9,652 bases of DNA from Micropruina sp. (GTDB taxonomy: Bacteria > Actinomycetota > Actinomycetes > Propionibacteriales > Propionibacteriaceae): NCBI GenBank assembly GCA_013693855.1, contig CP059261.1, positions 2,642,036 through 2,651,687 on the forward strand, written 5' to 3'. Under the pieces are notes generated by a model. That model was not told the DNA's origin and searched no databases. It saw nothing but the letters and a program-made list of their open reading frames with translations. Made by a program: the position numbers and the translations under genes. Shown here piece by piece: positions 396 through 8,588 of this stretch; the stretch's first letter is position 1; each line of letters opens with the position of its first letter.

Positions 396-3302
396 ATGAC
401 GACCGATCCGGACGACGCCCCCTCGGTGGGGTCGCCGCGTCGGTCGACGATGCCTGCACAGGCCGCGGAACTGACCGCCGACGAATGCTTGGAACGGCTT
501 GTCGGCGCGATCGCCGCGGTCAGCACGAGCAGGCTGTCCCGCGACGTGGTGGTGACCCACTCCGGCTTCGGCGAACCGGGGTGGAGCAGACTCCGCAACG
601 GGTGGTCCTGGGTCACGTCGGTCATCGTGACCGTCAGTGTCGGCCAGGCGGCGGAGTCGATCGAGCTTTGTGGCCCGCACGTTGGACGCGCACCAACGCG
701 GTCGCCTGCCCGGTAGCTCCCGACGAGGGCGCCGTCCAACCCGGCTGGCATGACGGCCTGTTCCTCGGCAAGCCGCTCGCGACCGGCCACGGTGTCCGGC
801 TGCGCGAAGACATCCACCTGATCTCCCGGCCGGTCAAGCTGATCTCCCCGGCAGACAAGACGACCTCCCAGCCAGCCAAGTATCGATGGAAGTCCGACGT
901 CGTGGTCTCCCCGATGATGGGTGAGGAGGTCTTTGGCCGCTTGGTGGTACCCGCACTGGATGGCAAGGTGCCGGACGCGTACCTCGACAAGGCACTCCAG
1001 GAACGTGTCCGGGAGAAGTTGACGGCCGAGGCGGTCGCCCTGGTCCTTGGCGGGGTGGAGCACCTACCCCCGCTCGTAGAGGATGTGATGGGCTCCCGCG
1101 CCGGCGACGACGAGACCACCACCGACGGCGACCTCGTCCGGTTCTGGAGGGAACGCCCCGACGACCCGCTGAGCCGCAGGAGGCTCCGGTCCGCGTGGCG
1201 GAAATTCAAGGAGGCGTCGGAGCAGGAGGCGTCGGAGGAACCCTGGGCATCGCCGAAGATACTCCCGCCCACGGTCGAGGACATCGGCCTCAACGCCGCC
1301 GAGCTGCGCGCGGCAGAGATCGCCGAGGGGCACCGCCGCCCAACCGGACCGCGGCCGAAAGGAACCGGCTGGTCGGCCCGGACGAGGTGATGGCCGAGCT
1401 GGTCTTCTCCCGCTACCTGCGCCGCGAAGTCAAGGCCTGGCGGGACGACACCAAGTGCGCCAGAGAACTCGCCTTCAGCCTGGGGCGGGCGGCCAAGAGC
1501 GCGCTGGCCCGGCTCTCGCAGGGGAAGGCCGGTGCCTCTGCCGTGGTGACCGGGGTGGACCGCGGCACCACTCTGGCGAGGGTGGAACAATCGGCGCGGA
1601 CCTGCTTCAACGGTTTCCGCGGACTGCCCGCGATCCTGCGCGGACGCGAGGACCTGCGCGACCTGGATCCGGGCTGGCGTGGGGTGTTGTGCCCGGTACA
1701 GACACCTGAATCCACCGATGTGGGGCTCGTCCGCTACACCACGGTGGGGGTACGGGTCGACGCACCCGAGGAGCTGCGGCAGTGGTTCGACCTGTCCGCC
1801 AGTGCGGCACTGATCCCGTTCATCAACCACAACGACCCGGCGCGGGCCTCGATCGGCAGCAAGAACCTGAAGCAGGCGATCCCCGTGGCCGGTGCGGAGG
1901 CACCCTGATCGCGACCGGGTGGGAGCGGGTGCTGGCCCGGGCGGAAGGCGTCTCGACCGCACCCACGGACGGCGTAGTCGCCGCGATCGAGTCGGGGGCC
2001 ATCATCCTGGAGACCGCGGAGGGGCGGGTGCGGGTCGGGTTGGGCGCGCCCTACGTGGATCGCTCAGGCCCCGACAACCAGTGGTGGTCAGATGTCGCCA
2101 CCGGGGAACGGGTGGTTGAGGGCCAGGTGCTCGCGCACGCACCCGATGTGGTGCTCGACCCCGAGACGGGGAACCCGAACTCGCCCTGGGGTTAACGCCC
2201 TGGTGGCGCTCACGCCGTGGCACGGACTCAACTTCGAGGATGCGATCGTCGTCAGTGATTCCTTCGCCGCCCGGATGACCTCGAGGCACATCCTCCGGGT
2301 CGACGAGCCGATCGAACCTGGTGACGATGTCCAGCATGTCGCCAACGTGTTGGTTGGTGTCGGGGGTGGGTCGAGGCTGGCCAGGACCTGGTCACGGTCA
2401 GCGAATGGCGCACGGTGGGCGACCGCCTCGTCCCGCCGCGATCGGTCAAGAGCCCGGTAAGTGGAGAATTCCTCGGCTCGTTCCTCGACGCTCGTCGGTC
2501 CACCGCGAGCTCGCTGATCAGCGTCGAACGCCCGCTCGCGGTCGGCGACAAGCTCAGCAACCGCCATCAGGGCAAGGGTGTGGTCAGCACGATTCTCCCG
2601 GAGGCGGAGATGCCGGTGGTGGAGTTCCCGGACGGCACGACTCGCCCGGCGGAGGTCCTGCTGAACCCCCTCGGGGTACTCCGCCGGCTGAATGTCGGCC
2701 AGTTGTGGGAGATGCACGAGTCGCTGCGCGCAGTGCTGACCGGGAAGGGCCGGCCGGATCCCGTGGGTCGCGCCGTCGCCGACCCCGCCCAACTCTCCCG
2801 TGACCTCGACGAGGCTGACGCCCGCCGGGGCCGACTACCGCTCCTGGCGCCAGACGGCAGGCCGATCGGCGGCAGCGAGGGTGTGGTGGTCGGATGGCAG
2901 TACATCCTCAAGCTCGACCACCTCGCCAGCGGGAAGCTGAGCGTGCGCGGTACCGACCATGCCCGGTCCCCGGTCAGCGGGCAGCCGAGCCAGACCGGCC
3001 GCTATCGCCGCGGCGAGCGGGTGGGCGCCGCGCAGCGCATGGGCGAGATGGAGGTCTGGGCGCTGGAGGCGGCAGACGCCCAGACGGTGCTGCTGGACGC
3101 ACTCACGCAGCGGGCGGGAGCCAGGCCCGAGGAGGCGGACCTGCCGCGGGCCGCGCTTCGCAGCACCCAGGCGCACCTGGCCGTGGCGGGCTACGACCTC
3201 GTCGCCAATGAGTCAAACCGGCACGCCCAGGCGCTGCGATGGGTGAAGCGCGACGAGATTCACCAGCTCATCCCCGCTCACGGGCGAGAGACTCCGGGCT
3301 GA
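396..3302 (+). CDS. Divergent RNA polymerase beta subunit (RpoB-like), about 970 residues, six apparent frameshifts
   Basis: This is the RpoB half of a two-subunit catalytic core for RNA synthesis. Landmarks in the corrected frame: CPVQTPESTDVGLV (433-446), equivalent to RpoB CPIETPEGPNIGLI; LIPFINHNDPARASIGS (from 473), equivalent to LIPFLEHDDANRALMGS; the acidic pair in NFEDAI (614-619); VGDKLSNRHQGKG with both active-site lysines (721 and 729, eight apart as in E. coli 1065/1073); LNPLG; and GEMEVWALEA (from 885) near the C-terminus. Regular RpoB is about 1,150-1,340 residues, so this copy is shortened, and the first 350 residues show little similarity. ATG 396 is chosen for GGGGG five bases upstream and coding-like sequence after it; ATG 384 is an alternative. 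Frames change at about 650-716 (possibly C3 674-676), G4 1327-1330, C3 1903-1905, G4 2168-2171, G4 2188-2191 and G5 2362-2366. Each needs one added base. The family is certain; the N-terminus is not. Confidence 0.88.
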
Positions 3303-3307
3303 AGGAG
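3302..3307 (+). promoter_or_regulatory. Ribosome binding site that sets the beta' start and overlaps the beta stop
   Basis: AAGGAG at 3302-3307 sits 8 bases before ATG 3316, and its first A is the last base of the beta TGA (3300-3302). This shows that beta and beta' are separate but translationally linked genes, rather than a fused beta-beta' polypeptide split by a sequencing error. Confidence 0.7.
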
Positions 3308-3315
3308 TTGCCGGG

Positions 3316-5618
3316 ATGGCGGGACGCCGAGAAATGGCCCCGCATCGGGCGGGAGCCCCCGGGCTGAAGGATCTTATGGCCCTGGCGGAGTGTTACGGCC
3401 CGGAATGGGCTCAGGGACAGTCGCCAAGTTGGAGCCTGCTGCACCCGCTGTATCGGCCCAGACACAAGGACGGCACGGTGCTCCACGGTGACCCCGGCAG
3501 CTTGGACGCCGAAGAGGTTCGCTACGTGATCCCCCTTCCCGAACCTATGCCACACCCCTGGGGACGCGCGAAGCGCACCAGGACGGGCCAGTGGAGGCCG
3601 TCGAACGACCCGAAGCTGGAGCCGATCACGGCGGTTCCAGTGTTGCCGCCGGCCTACCGGATCGCGGGCGCCTCCACCCTTGACCGTCACTACCAGGATC
3701 TCGCCGTCGCGCTCGCCCGGTACGCACGCAACATCGAACGCGCCGATGCCAACGAGGCCGCAGCGCTCGACGAAGACGCGGCGGCCAGGCAACTCGAGCT
3801 GGCTGGGCAGGAGCTCTCGCAAGCCGATCAGCCGGGGCCGGAGAAGAGGCGCGTCCACGCGCAGGCCCTTCGGAAGACGGCCGGTTGGCTGCGAAAATCG
3901 GCGCGGGACCGCTGGGTCGACGCCCAGGCGCAGGTGGAGGCGATCATCGGCGCATCGGTCGACATCGAGGGAAACGAGGTGACGCCCGATCCCGACAGCA
4001 TGCTGGGACGTCTGGCAGGGAAGCGCGGCCTGTTACGCCGCTACCAGCTCGGCCAGTCCGTGACCCACTCCGGTCGGTCCGTGATCGTCCCGGATGTGTC
4101 GCTGCAACCGTTCGAGGTGGGCCTCCCCGCAGCGCTGGCGCAAGGCATCGGGGTCGACCCGGCAGAACCTCTCGGGGATGTCGTTCTGGTGAACCGTCAG
4201 CCCTCCATCCAGCCGTACAACGTGCTGTCGCTGAGGGCACGAGCGACCCCGGCGATGCCGTACGGCTGCATCCGCTGGTCATCGGTGCCCTCGCCGGCGA
4301 CTTCGACGGAGACACCGTCGCCGTTCACCGGCCCATCAGTGATGACGCCCGCAAGCAGTCATGGGAACAGCTCAGCCCACAGGCCAACCTCCGCTCCTCG
4401 GCCAGTCGCCAGCTACTGGCCAAACTCGACCTCGACATCGCCCTGGGGATCCGCCTCCTGATCGCAACGACGGACGGGCGGCGTGAACTGGCCCGAAGGA
4501 CGGGACTTCGGGCTTCAGGCATGGTGAAGAACCCGCCGGAGCCTGTGGAGCTTGCCGAGGCGATCGTCTCGAGGGCGTCAGACCCGCAGGAAGCCGTCCT
4601 TGGCCTGGCAGGTCTGGAGGAAGTGGCCTGGCGGGGAGCGACCGGATGGTCGGTCGGTGCACTCGACCTGTACTCCGGCGGCGAGGGAGGACCCTTCGCC
4701 GAGGCCGTCTCCGCGGGTGTAGCCGGCAAGGAAGGTGCCCGCACCCAGCTGCTGGTCAAGCGCGGCGCCGTCGAGGGAGCCTACCCGGGAACCCCGTGGT
4801 CGACGTGCCGGGCTGCTTCCTCATCGGCCTGACCGACAACGACTACTTCGCCACATCGCCGGGCGCCCTCGCGAGCCTCGCGGAGAAGAAGCTTACCTCT
4901 CCTCACGCCGGGGCGCTCACCAAGACACTCGTCGAGATCGCCGACCAGGTGGTGATCGCCGACCAGAAGTGCGAACTGCCCGACACCCTGCGGTCCCCCT
5001 CACCTGCCAATCCCCGAACGGGGTGTGCGCAGCCTGCTACGGACCGGATCCAGGCACGAACCAGCCACTCACGTCGGGCCGCCGGGTGGGAGTCCTGGCA
5101 GGGCTGCTGATCGGCGCCCGATCCAGCGAACTATCCATGAAGGTGTTCCACGGCGGGGGCCAGACCGGAGACCTCGGCAGCGAGCTGACCACCCTCAAGG
5201 CCCTGTTCGGAAACGGCAAGAGCCGTACCGCCTTCACCCCCGGTGCGCCGCTCAGCCTGCGGCAGTACCTCGACCTCGGTGAGCACCTGGACGACCCCGA
5301 AAAGCGGCTGGAGTACCTGCAACCCGTCGTCGAACGAGCCGTGGAAACCCTCGGCGGCAAGCCCGGCGAGACACCCCGGTCGACGGCGTGCACGTCGCTG
5401 TCGTGCTGCGCCAACTGTACGAAACCTGGCTCGTCCGCGACGAACTGGCCTCAGCCGGACCACCAGGCCCACGCACACTCGCCGATCTCGCCCAGCAGCG
5501 AGGCCGAACCCCGTTCGAACTGGCGACCTCACGCGGATCCCTCCGATGGCTCCAGACCAGCCCGGGCGGCGCGACGGGTGGCGTCCGGACCAGGCTGGCG
5601 ACCGGAGCCGTGCAATGA
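3316..5618 (+). CDS. Short divergent RNA polymerase beta' subunit (RpoC-like), about 768 residues, four apparent frameshifts
   Basis: This is the catalytic partner of the beta-like protein. Landmarks in order: VPVLPP (107-112), as in RpoC PVLPPDLRPL; GKRGLLRRYQLGQSVTHSGR leading into SGRSVI (252-257), the switch-2 region; VNRQPSIQPYNVLSLRA, as in LLNRAPTLHRLGIQAFEP; AGDFDGDTVAVH with the three Mg-binding aspartates 329, 331 and 333 (bases 4299-4313); a bridge-helix equivalent; four zinc-site cysteines 553, 565, 572 and 575, with the C-x6-C-x2-C spacing of E. coli 888/895/898; then VGVLAGLLIG and ELSMKVFHGGG, a trigger loop with Met609 and His613; and VHVAVVLRQL near the C-terminus. Only 106 residues precede VLPP, against about 320 in E. 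coli, so the N-terminal zinc finger, lid, zipper and clamp helices look absent. Frames change at C4 4247-4250, C4 4792-4795 (or C3 4784-4786), C5 4995-4999 and C4 5374-5377. The TGA overlaps the next ATG (ATGA). It contains one rare TTA codon. Confidence 0.9.
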
Positions 5619-6594
5619 GCCCCGACGTCGGCCCGTGGAACGACCCCACCAGGACAACGGGAACGATCACCGGCATCGCCGCCGCGAGAGCGCGGGACCG
5701 CGAGGTAGCCGAGGACGCCGAGCGCATCGTCGACCTCCGCGACGAGATTCCGCTTCCAACCAGGCAGAGCTCCGTGAAGGACAACGCGCCGCCGATCGAC
5801 GAGGTCCCCGAGTCCCCCGCGACGACACCGAAGACCTCCCGATCGCCGACGACGGCGAGCAGGATCCGCCCGACCGCGCCGCAAGCTGGGATCCCTGGGT
5901 CCGCCTGACGATCTTCCGGGACACGTGGGGGCTCAGCTACCACGTGGAACATCCCGACGCGACAAGCCGGGCCATCGAGGAGATCCTGGACGTGCAGGAC
6001 CGAAACTGGGAGAACCTTGCCAGGACCCTGATCGACCTCCAGCACGACGCCCTCGCCTGCCCCACCGCGCTGGAGGCGCTGGAGACGCTCTGGGCGGAAA
6101 CCAAACAAGAGCACCAGCGCTCCGTCGGCCAACTCAGTCGCGACCGGCACTTCGTGATCGGCACCCCGTTCGGCACCGTTCCGCTGGACTTCTTCTTCAT
6201 GGGCCGCCGCACACGCGATCGCAAGGACACCCTCTACGCCGACCTCCGGAAAGTCGGCCAGCACCTCACAGAGACTGGAGCGCAATCGCTGTCAACGCCA
6301 CAACTCCGCGCGCTGCTTCCCCACCTGACCGAGGCCGGGATCGAGTCCACCCGCAAGCACGTTGCCGCACTCATCAAAGTGCTCGCGCAACCACACATTC
6401 TCGCCCGGCACCGCCAATTCTGGCCGCAGACCAGCACCGCCGCGCTCTACGACGATCTGGGGATCATGCCGCACAGCAACGACCGGTCCGCACCGGCCGG
6501 CATCCTTGCGATCCTCGGAGCATTCGAACGCGGCAATCCGGTGCTGGCCCAGGGCGCGGCGCCACGCCTGCCGAGAGAGACCAGAAGACCATGA
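5615..6594 (+). CDS. Sigma-54 (RpoN)-like factor, about 326 residues, one apparent frameshift
   Basis: The start ATG overlaps the beta' stop (ATGA, 5615-5618). The frame changes at C5 5814-5818, where one added C joins PESP to RDDTEDLPIADD. The C-terminal half follows sigma-54 by eye. Residues 95-115 (WVRLTIFRDTWGLSYHVEHP) match the IPD-V-R-V-DG-W-VELN segment. NWENLARTLIDLQHDAL (131-147) matches the TLL-VA-AIV-RQ-DFL helix. RDRHFVIGTPFGTVPLDFFF (176-195) matches the NKY-QTPRGIFELKFFF segment. SLSTPQLRALLPHLTEAGI (225-243) matches LSD-KI-ELL-EEGI. STRKHVAALIK (245-255) occupies the position of the RpoN box ARRTVAKYRE. An acidic stretch at 62-93 resembles region II. The Gln/Leu-rich region I and most of the core-binding domain are missing; typical RpoN is 430-500 residues. 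Its place between a polymerase core and a sigma-54-type activator strongly supports the assignment. The alternative is an unrelated helix-turn-helix protein. Confidence 0.68.
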
Positions 6595-8179
6595 CAACCT
6601 GCAAAGTCGTGGGAGACGTGCCGAAAGCGGTCGTCGCCCGCATCGGAAAAGGCGGATTGGCGACCCCGGCTGTCCGCCTGTCAGACCAGGTGATGGTGGA
6701 CAGCGACTTCGTGGTCGTCCATGTGCCCGAACGCCCCACCCTTGGCCAGCTCGACCAGGTCGCGGACTGGCTGAACGCCGCAGGCGACATGGGCGCCCAA
6801 GCTGGCCTGACCAGTGCGGGTGGCCTCTCGGCCGATCTGGTGTGGCTGCTATTCGACCGCTCAGTGCATCCGGTGATGTTGCTCAACGTCGGGGAACAGG
6901 CCAACACCTACGCCGTCAGCATCTTCCTTGAAGCAGCAACCAAGCCGACCGATCCCGCCGCGGGCGACGTCAAGATCGGCCGCCTCTACGCCCAGTCCTC
7001 AGACATCATCGAGTACCGCCGACAGCGCTACATGTCTCTGTCGAGCGCCAAGATGCAGCCGTTCCTACAGGCGCTCCAGGAAGCGGTCCACGCAATGAGC
7101 GCACCGTTCCCGCCCCTGCCGGACGGCATCACCCACGTGCCGCCCTGGCATCCCAACGGACCACTTACATCCGCGACCAAACTCGCAAAGGGCAACATTC
7201 CGTCGCTGGCCGACATGTTCCGCCTCCACCCCACCGACGAGGCGAAACTCCGATTCAACCGCGAGCAACAGGACTGGGCCGTACCCAAGCTCCTCGTGCG
7301 AGGCGAGAGTGGCTCAGGCAAGACCCTGGTGGCCGAACTGGTACACGACCTCATCTCCAGGCGCATGGGCAGGGTGCTGCCGTTCGTCCCGATCAACTGC
7401 GCGGGACTCACCGACCGAAACCTCGTGCACGAACTGTTCGGTGCTCCGCAGGGGTTTGGACCAACGCGGCCGTCGTCGGGGATCTCGCCAAGGCAGGCTA
7501 CGGAGTCGCCTTCCTGGACGAGATCGGCGACCTCGCCCCCGAGGTCCAGCGCGCCATGTTGACATTCCTGGGCGACGGAATGATCAGGCCAACCGGCATC
7601 GAGCCCTACCCCGGGTTCGTCCGGGTCGTCGCCGCCACCAACCGTGACATCTCGCTGCTCATTGAGAAGCAGCAGTTCCGAAACGACCTGAACCAGCGAT
7701 TCTCACTCCAGGTGGAAATCCCGCCACTGCGCGAACGGGATGAAGCAGAACTCGAAGCGCTGGTGGACTTCGTGGCGCTTCACCCGCAGCGCAACCCCAA
7801 CCTGGCGGTCAGCCACATCGGGCAGGATGCGCTCAAGGAACTGAAGAAGCACGAGTACCGCAACGGCAACTTCCGTGAACTGGAGGTGATCGTCCACGAC
7901 GGCATCGGACGAGCCCGCCGCCGGCGCTCCAAGGTGCTCCAGGCGCGCGATCTCGCCTTCAGCGACCCGCACGCCGTGAGCGACCGTGAGGCCTATCTGA
8001 TCGACGTCGACGCTGCGCCGGCGGGTCCCTACCTCACCGTCAAGCGGGAGGTGGATCTAGCTAGGGTCGCCGCGCTGGCCTCGGTTCCCGTCCTCAGGGC
8101 GCCGGACACGAGCCAATACGCCGTCACGCGGGAGGCAGTCTTCCGATACCCTCCATCGGCCGCCGAGCCGACTACCTGA
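6591..8179 (+). CDS. AAA+ ATPase of the sigma-54 activator (bEBP) type with altered GAFTGA loop, about 529 residues, one apparent frameshift
   Basis: Proteins of this family use ATP hydrolysis to remodel a sigma-54-polymerase complex so that it opens DNA. The ATG overlaps the upstream stop (ATGA, 6591-6594). Residues 1-220 form an unrecognised domain where a sensor normally sits. The AAA+ domain shows Walker A GESGSGKT (238-245), ELFG (281-284), the L1 loop GVWTNA (288-293) in place of GAFTGA, Walker B VAFLDEIGD (D310, E311), sensor I AATN (348-351), FRNDLNQRF (363-371) with arginine-finger candidates R364 and R370, EIPPLRER, and sensor II GNFRELE (426-432). The last 90 residues show no Fis-type DNA-binding helix-turn-helix. 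The frame changes at G4 7451-7454, just before the GAFTGA position. One added G yields APQGVWTNAAVVGDLAKAGY and an open frame to the end. The ATPase family is certain; its partner is inferred from the neighbours. Confidence 0.88.
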
Positions 8180-8235
8180 GGCCTGCGGCGGGCATCGACG
8201 AGGGCGTCAGCGGATGCTTCCTGCGTTGTGGGGAT

Positions 8236-8249
8236 CGCCCGTTTGGGCG
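8236..8249 (+). other. Short GC hairpin between the ATPase gene and the small ORF
   Basis: CGCCC-GTTT-GGGCG is a perfect five-base-pair stem with a four-base loop, lying in the 94-base gap between the ATPase stop and ATG 8274. No T-run follows, so it is not a clear intrinsic terminator. It might slow transcription or affect mRNA stability, or be chance. Confidence 0.25.
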
Positions 8250-8273
8250 TCCGTCCACGAAGGGAAACATGCC

Positions 8274-8588
8274 ATGGCCGACTCCGCCGAAACCTACCGC
8301 GACCGCTACCGCAGCGTCATCCAGCATTACCTGGGCCACAAGGTCAGCGAGTGTTCTGTCGGGCTCAAAGTGGAACTCGATAGTGGCCTCGTCGTCCTCA
8401 TCGAGGACCGTTATGCCGTCGAAGATCCTGAGTACCTCTCCGCGAGTGCGCTCTTTGTGATTCCCGATCTCCCAGCCCCAATGCTGGAGGCCGCCGCGAA
8501 CCGTGTCACCCGCCGAGTCAAGGTCGCCAAGGCCATCTTCCGCCGCAAGGCAGTCACCCTGCACGCCCAGACCATCACGTCGGCTTGA
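8274..8588 (+). CDS. Small unrecognised protein, 104 residues as read, probably cut short by the insertion sequence
   Basis: ATG 8274 is preceded by GAAGGGA (8259-8265) at a good distance. An ATG at 8269 is in another frame, and longer in-frame starts at 8214 lack a ribosome site. The product begins MADSAETYRDRYRSVIQHYL, then has a beta-rich middle (VGLKVELDSGLVVLIEDRYA, ALFVIPDLP) and a basic helix (ANRVTRRVKVAKAIFRRK). No catalytic motif, membrane segment or signal peptide is seen and I do not recognise the family. It lies 94 bases after the ATPase gene on the same strand, so it may be the last gene of the operon. Its TGA (8586-8588) coincides with the probable outer end of the IS3 element, so its original C-terminus may lie beyond the insertion. 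Confidence 0.6.
   Translation: MADSAETYRDRYRSVIQHYLGHKVSECSVGLKVELDSGLVVLIEDRYAVEDPEYLSASALFVIPDLPAPMLEAAANRVTRRVKVAKAIFRRKAVTLHAQTITSA

Follow-up and report, generated by a model that had tools for sequence, protein, structure and literature searches.

The textbook bacterium has a single core RNA polymerase, to which different sigma factors bind in turn. Does the operon at positions 396-8179 of the window, by which we mean the whole stretch of 9,652 bases analyzed here (G000:C1:2642036-2651687), encode a second core, and with what partners would it work? The source genome, G000, is a single contig of 3.67 Mb with an estimated completeness of 80%. It contains an intact, ordinary rpoB in a separate frame of 1262 codons at C1:1162890, so the polymerase of the operon is a second polymerase. 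The genes at 396-8179 are real, because Pfam finds Rpb2_6, Rpb2_3, Rpb1_2, and Sigma54_activat in the pieces. We read them as a private machine in which a second RNA polymerase, a likely sigma-54-like factor, and an ATPase of the bacterial enhancer-binding protein (bEBP) type would remain closed on promoters until ATP is hydrolyzed, and we give this reading a probability of about two in three.

The polymerase gene spans 396-5618 on the plus strand, from an ATG at 396 to a TGA at 5616-5618, with 11 frame changes in the assembly, and is most likely one fused β-β′ gene. Its pieces match Rpb2_6 (8.1e-23), Rpb2_3 (1.7e-5), and Rpb1_2 (9e-7). Read in frame, the β part carries the catalytic-lysine motif GDKLSNRHQGKG (2544-2579, plus strand), whose lysines fall on the invariant columns K651 and K659 of a 75-row alignment, and the β′ part carries the catalytic Mg-binding motif DFDGD (4299-4313, plus strand). 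The β′ DFDGD and the β lysines within GDK and GKG motifs are the features by which two-barrel polymerases are recognized, and the initially annotated homology to β and β′ with catalytic residues kept is borne out. Judged by these residues, the locus encodes a second β-β′ catalytic core that is predicted to synthesize RNA.

The same operon is found unbroken in G098, a genome of another genus within the family of G000. On contig L096 of that genome, three genes joined by ATGA overlaps encode the polymerase (7225-12387, 1720 aa), the sigma-like protein (12384-13364, 326 aa), and the AAA+ protein (13361-14980, 539 aa), referred to here as P0001, P0002, and P0003. Eight window segments align with P0001 by tblastn at 29-65% identity over 1,640 alignment columns. 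The sigma-like gene of the window overlaps both flanking genes in the same manner, at ATGA junctions 5615/5618 and 6591/6594, which are the two overlaps that had been annotated. The operon is real, and homologues of its genes recur together elsewhere. When three protein lists are compared, nine contigs, judged to be the same by equal size, hold two or three of the parts: all three on contigs of 72178 (G098), 43781, and 40096 bases; the sigma-like protein and polymerase on those of 60228 and 18580 bases; polymerase and AAA+ protein on those of 12831 and 17380 bases; and the sigma-like and AAA+ proteins on those of 30491 and 74544 bases. All seven sigma-like matches whose longest contig exceeds 15 kb have a partner; the other four lie on contigs of 2,180 bases or less. 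In one Bifidobacteriaceae metagenome-assembled genome (MAG), the sigma-like protein and the polymerase bear neighboring tags (LBK95_19985 and LBK95_19990). Outside G098, this co-occurrence is read from list entries, not from DNA, and it covers no partners of the distant polymerases P0046-P0090.

The initial annotation divided the polymerase into separate β and β′ genes joined by a stop/Shine-Dalgarno overlap. One gene is most likely, with the boundary at 3302/3316 being one of the frame breaks, because the protein is a single chain in G098 and in the listed relatives and because the P0032 match runs through this point. Alignment by tblastn (P0001, P0031, and P0032) places 453-5615 successively in frames 3, 2, 1, 3, 1, 3, 2, 1, 3, 2, 1, and 3. 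With P0032, frame 3 extends to 3272, frame 2 covers 3299-3361, and frame 1 starts at 3358; the frame-2 segment amounts to 21 residues of one relative only. Two separate genes were rejected as the leading reading since the chain of frames passes the boundary, and the stop/Shine-Dalgarno overlap is an artifact if the one-gene reading is right.

When 5.8 billion proteins are searched with P0001, 178 match, and the 120 listed comprise 76 β+β′ proteins (1155-2028 aa) and 44 RpoB. In our large protein searches only about 8,000 candidates, those with the most words in common with the query, were scored, and the lists may be incomplete; polymerase candidates were also limited to 0.55-1.75 times 1720 aa, a range in which split forms could not appear. 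DFDGD is present in 76/76 of the listed fused polymerases. Across the 75-row alignment, both β lysines, the DFDGD residues, and three β′ cysteines are invariant, while stricter text patterns around the lysines match 56/76 and 55/76 and one β′ cysteine pattern matches 52/76. A β-core tree was built by a quick method from 29 family rows chosen from the 76, 11 housekeeping rows, and 6 phage-type rows. One branch (SH-aLRT 97) holds 25 family rows, namely all those drawn from P0001-P0091. The housekeeping rows occupy a separate branch (SH-aLRT 98) with the G000 rpoB inside it, and on this placement a recent copy of the host rpoB was rejected as the leading reading. P0092, P0093, P0096, P0097, and P0099 fall outside the family branch, P0094, P0095, and P0098 are not in the tree, and P0091 and P0099 are long branches. 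We note that P0092-P0099 have β and β′ domains in one protein and that P0099 resembles IMG/VR polymerases split over two or three genes.

The family differs from housekeeping enzymes at the flap. Since the sampled P0092-P0099 rows fell outside the family branch, these eight rows were left out and the count was made on P0001 and P0025-P0091 (68 rows). The RAIFG-type flap-tip motif is found in 0/68 family proteins versus 41/45 housekeeping proteins. The flap-holding span measures 85-106 residues (median 93) in the 60 of 68 family rows where it is measurable, the other eight having no measurable span, as compared with 146-267 residues (median 264) in the 45 housekeeping proteins and 146 in the G000 rpoB. 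The flap tip is the docking place of sigma factors, and its loss would exclude ordinary sigma factors. P0001 scores 220.5 bits against the TIGR02013 cut-off of 801.15 and does not class as a housekeeping RpoB/RpoC. Near the C-terminal end of its β′ part lies a YgjP-like metallopeptidase domain (L096:12001-12237, P0001 residues 1593-1671). According to precomputed Pfam lists this domain is present in four listed proteins (P0001 and P0025-P0027), and a text search finds a HELTH-type motif in 3/76.

The sigma-54-like protein gene (5615-6594, plus strand) was identified by tblastn of P0002 and P0013, by alignment, and by the fold of its relative P0002; it contains one frame change near 5810. By sequence, its resemblance to sigma-54 is weak. 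Pfam Sigma54_DBD (PF04552) gives E 0.029 in 1/12 members, with 14.6 bits against a cut-off of 22.8, and exceeds the cut-off in 0/12, and neither AID nor CBD of Pfam matches any of the 12. The predicted fold nevertheless ranks sigma-54 first: with a low-confidence model of P0002, nine sigma-54 chains take ranks 1-9 of the fold comparison. Profile and fold alignments agree on the order of segments, and in the alignment the motif GTPFGTVPLDFFF (6160-6198, plus strand) occupies the position of the sigma-54 TPRGxFELKYFF segment. The sigma-54 C-terminal segment order claimed at the outset is thus predicted, although weak by sequence. In the model, one short helix and an acidic stretch at the N-terminus are predicted to be followed by the last part of the core-binding domain, then by the DNA-binding part and the RpoN-box segment. 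The actinobacterial phylum had been taken to be generally regarded as without sigma-54, and passages of two papers describe it so (PMC3162934, PMC12316311); nonetheless G207, the genome of an Acidimicrobiia MAG of this phylum (L071), carries a canonical RpoN match (E 2.2e-63).

The bEBP-type AAA+ ATPase gene (6591-8179, plus strand; tblastn of P0003) matches Sigma54_activat on two pieces (9.7e-10 and 2e-13), which confirms the class that had been assigned, and contains one frame change between 7454 and 7472. P0003 itself scores 111.6 bits against a cut-off of 20.2. The Walker A motif GESGSGKT (7302-7325, plus strand) and the Walker B motif VAFLDEIGD (7505-7531, plus strand), located by in-frame reading and alignment, are conserved in 11/11 AAA+ proteins. 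GAFTGA is found in 0/11, with a GxFSDI/GKWADI-type sequence seen by eye at the same place, and the protein has no recognized C-terminal DNA-binding domain. The predicted fold of P0003 suggests a receiver-like N-terminal domain within 6591-8179 (plus strand): model residues 1-468 align with the receiver and AAA+ domains of NtrC1, NtrX, and FleQ at 21-25 Å rmsd, and no receiver Pfam matches. The N-terminal 236 residues are found in 11 database proteins. Against genome contigs, the AAA+ piece retains 80 loci, mainly the Walker A region of ordinary bEBPs.

Taken together, these parts suggest the following mechanism. The sigma-like protein would dock on the operon polymerase rather than on the host enzyme, because the host β has a flap tip, the operon β is without one, and the sigma-like protein is without most of the core-binding domain. 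It would recognize promoters of its own, and its acidic N-terminal stretch is predicted to play the part of regions I/II. On a signal sensed by its receiver-like domain, the AAA+ ring may open the closed complex through a changed L1 loop, in which GxFSDI or a similar sequence replaces GAFTGA. G000, G098, G040, and G017 have one rpoA match each; with a single rpoA in G000 and G098, host alpha would be either borrowed or not needed. The likely role would be gated expression of the surrounding conflict-type genes, including JAB-E1, NYN, and HD-CE. A promoter scan with typed sigma-54 patterns finds no strict site at the operon, and looser patterns are scattered. Of the sigma-54-type machine as first proposed, the second catalytic core, the activator-type ATPase, and the operon stand, sigma-54 is retained as a predicted and cut-down form, and the separate β and β′ genes are given up as the leading reading.

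The surroundings bear on what such a machine might serve. Within about 40 kb of the operon, G000 and G098 have five further gene types in common: a JAB-ThiF/E1 fusion (52.5% over 579 aa), a small gene with an RDYxFTF motif (47% over 152 aa; no Pfam match over the cut-off), a NYN gene (31% over 159 aa), an HD-CE gene (42.5% over 80, in pieces in G000), and an OmpA-type lipoprotein (25% over 236). The NYN-domain (RNase-type) gene is divergent from the operon; called on the minus strand, it starts in the window at 1-195 and continues to -602 outside it, and its Pfam match is over the cut-off in G000 (2.3e-8) and under it in G098. JAB-E1 occurs in 2/197 family genomes, the same two that have the polymerase, at about 35 kb from the operon in G098 and about 1-3 kb in G000. 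The G098 island also contains STAND, TIR, and caspase-like genes. HD-CE, STAND, TIR, and caspase-like genes are linked to NTP-dependent conflict systems. Common neighbors are company and not proof of function.

The best surviving alternative, which we regard as doubtful, makes the polymerase itself a defence output: a signal would make it transcribe invader or host DNA, and the NYN nuclease and JAB-E1 module would be effectors linked to it. The company of NYN, JAB-E1, and HD-CE in two genera and the TIR, caspase-like, and STAND genes of G098 speak for it. However, no PADLOC model matches the polymerase or the sigma-like protein, the common genes may be separate neighbors in an island, and no RNA product is known. 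Under our own reading of a private, ATP-gated machine, the fullest version is that a cell-encoded, one-chain polymerase lineage without a flap tip has adopted the logic of sigma-54 and, together with a minimal sigma-54 and an AAA+ opener of its own, forms a second, fully orthogonal ATP-gated apparatus that would fire ubiquitin-like/NYN island effectors in actinobacteria, a group almost without canonical sigma-54. This version is tentative, and we hold it with somewhat less than even confidence.

Several other features were recorded. A 982-aa HD-CE protein at L163:7005-9950 also matches the PADLOC CARF-HD model. A CRISPR array of at least 19 repeats (L167:9019-13445; G000 C1:2621019-2625445) lies about 17-21 kb upstream of the window and adjoins, by eye, genes for Cas2, a reverse transcriptase-Cas1 fusion (589 aa), and a Cas6-like protein. 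An IS3-type transposase gene (window 8628-9887, minus strand, by eye) comes right after the operon, and between the two lies a small open frame of 124 aa (window 8214-8588) that matches no called gene of the G098 contig. Rfam at gathering score has no match in the window, L096, or L098.

Another alternative accepts a real and active polymerase but makes the third protein an unrelated helical factor for promoters or assembly, with the AAA+ protein remodeling the polymerase in some other way. The Pfam and whole-profile matches of the third protein fall below significance (hhalign of whole alignments gives P 0.14 and 0.045), and the AAA+ protein is without GAFTGA. Among PDB sequences, the profile of the sigma-like protein finds two chance matches to an mRNA-capping enzyme (E 0.22 and 0.23). 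Phage multisubunit polymerases can reportedly use unrelated specificity subunits, as is said of phage AR9. Yet the rank of the nine sigma-54 chains, the agreement of two kinds of alignment on segment order, and a partner from the bEBP class, the usual client of which is sigma-54, make this account unlikely. Two points slightly lowered our confidence in the preferred reading: sub-regions in the profile test of the third protein were picked afterwards, and split polymerases could not be listed.

It is likewise unlikely that the operon is what a mobile element or phage remnant uses to transcribe its own genes, and not those of the host. Its distribution is sparse. Strong polymerase matches occur in 2/197 family genomes (G000 and G098), and the other 107 of 109 matching family genomes give E 1.2e-4 to 9.9e-4 over a stretch of 48-49 residues, mostly in a housekeeping-sized frame. 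Wider searches find 1/396 genomes in the phylum and 1/246 in the class, each time the own genome, and 2/293 in the order (G000 and G098); the phylum of G205 (0/149) and the class of G207 (0/193) show little, since no genome in either is known to match. The G000 region also has transposase-like genes and, by eye, a TraG/VirD4-like gene, and phages do encode multisubunit polymerases. Against this, the sigma-like protein has no relatives in IMG/VR (98 stretches), and 46/47 IMG/VR polymerase matches have 21-37% identity; the remaining one (52%) comes from the edge of a contig, and its best family match is at 27%. Neither the 50,697 phage records nor the 72,556 plasmid records contain a place covering 80% of the query, the phage rows lie outside the family branch of the β tree, and the G098 neighbors inspected are conflict-type genes. 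Phage origin as the leading reading was rejected on these searches and the tree. Separately, Clostridioides difficile plasmids of roughly 100 kb (NZ_CP149680.1 plus ten other listed records, 96-135 kb) match 32% of the fused polymerase at 32% identity, and ten of these eleven records have annotated RNA polymerase β and β′ genes under the match.

The broken frames remain to be explained. At least 13 frame changes are found in 396-8179: 11 in the polymerase gene, one in the third gene (frames 2 then 1 by tblastn), and one in the AAA+ gene (frames 3 then 2). Twelve of the 13 steps go 3>2>1>3, as they would after loss of a base. N runs occur at 1.31 per kb in five 20-kb stretches of G000 (one was picked because it holds rpoB), with 4,107 bases as the longest N-free gap. 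When a 69-kb flank is added to these stretches, 186/195 N runs consist of a single N, and 45% of the runs touch a homopolymer of at least three, as compared with 11% of random sites. The housekeeping rpoB and rpoC of G000 are intact with seven Ns inside them, whereas the 9,652 bases of the window have zero Ns and one N bounds each side. Gene lengths in the five stretches are similar to those of G040, from the same genus, which has no N in five stretches. Since 12 of the 13 steps go one way and frame-keeping single Ns occur elsewhere and not in the window, the breaks are most likely unpatched sequencing errors. The single Ns are what a long-read assembly would show after patching by similarity to known proteins. 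Some correction programs patch frames with N, and our reading is that the G000 assembly was so patched where known relatives existed, and that the operon had none; under such patching, genes without known relatives would stay broken and escape annotation. That the window genes are decayed pseudogenes, whatever their state elsewhere, is very improbable: the density of changes within 7.8 kb and a flanking HD-CE gene likewise in pieces would fit decay, but the common direction and an N pattern that points to frames never patched led us to reject it as the leading reading.

If true, a second core that the cell itself encodes, and that comes with an activator-dependent sigma factor of its own, would break the one-core rule. 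Such a machine would be a tightly gated expression system, orthogonal by nature, and would test to what extent sigma-54 and its opener can be reduced. It would also be a new means of silencing dangerous conflict genes, because an accidental start by the host polymerase would be impossible. The link between the separate polymerase branch and ubiquitin-like conflict genes is testable.

Within the open-licence papers that we compared, no description was found of a core that the cell encodes together with a sigma-54-like factor and opener of its own, in agreement with the initial annotation; secondary multisubunit polymerases in phages and activators with changed GAFTGA are already known. Fused β-β′ is present in some genera such as Helicobacter. 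P0001, with 1720 aa and 248.6 bits, is well removed from the housekeeping fused model PRK09603 (2890 positions, cut-off 5372). It shares DFDGD, the β lysine pair, Rpb2_6, Rpb1_2, Rpb1_5, and the β′ cysteines with housekeeping RpoB/RpoC, whereas housekeeping RpoB has a flap tip and a separate branch of the β tree. The phage multisubunit polymerases (PHROGs 24349, 25354, and 3295; PMC7598289) are likewise second multisubunit-type enzymes beside that of the host, and the PHROGs models match; they differ in lying outside the family branch and in having no sigma-like or AAA+ relative in 47 viral loci, and the phage, plasmid, and IMG/VR searches yielded no family member.

A low-confidence model predicts for the third protein a fold like that of sigma-54 (RpoN), in which the last part of the core-binding domain, the DNA-binding part, and the RpoN-box segment would follow in the sigma-54 order, but at 326 aa it is missing most of the core-binding domain, has no exact RpoN box, and has a polymerase partner of its own. 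The AAA+ protein resembles bEBPs of the NtrC, FleQ, and RtcR type in Sigma54_activat, both Walker motifs, and, by predicted fold, a possible NtrC-like receiver and AAA+ layout, while these have the GAFTGA and C-terminal DNA-binding domain that it is without; activators with a changed motif exist, according to a passage that we take to mean GAFTGA (PMC3162934). As for the NTP-dependent conflict systems, the words "RNA polymerase" appear 0 times in the main text of PMC7159879. What is the same (PMC7159879, PMC8195603) is E1 with other ubiquitin-like components, and PMC8195603 includes proteins predicted to act on the host RNA polymerase.

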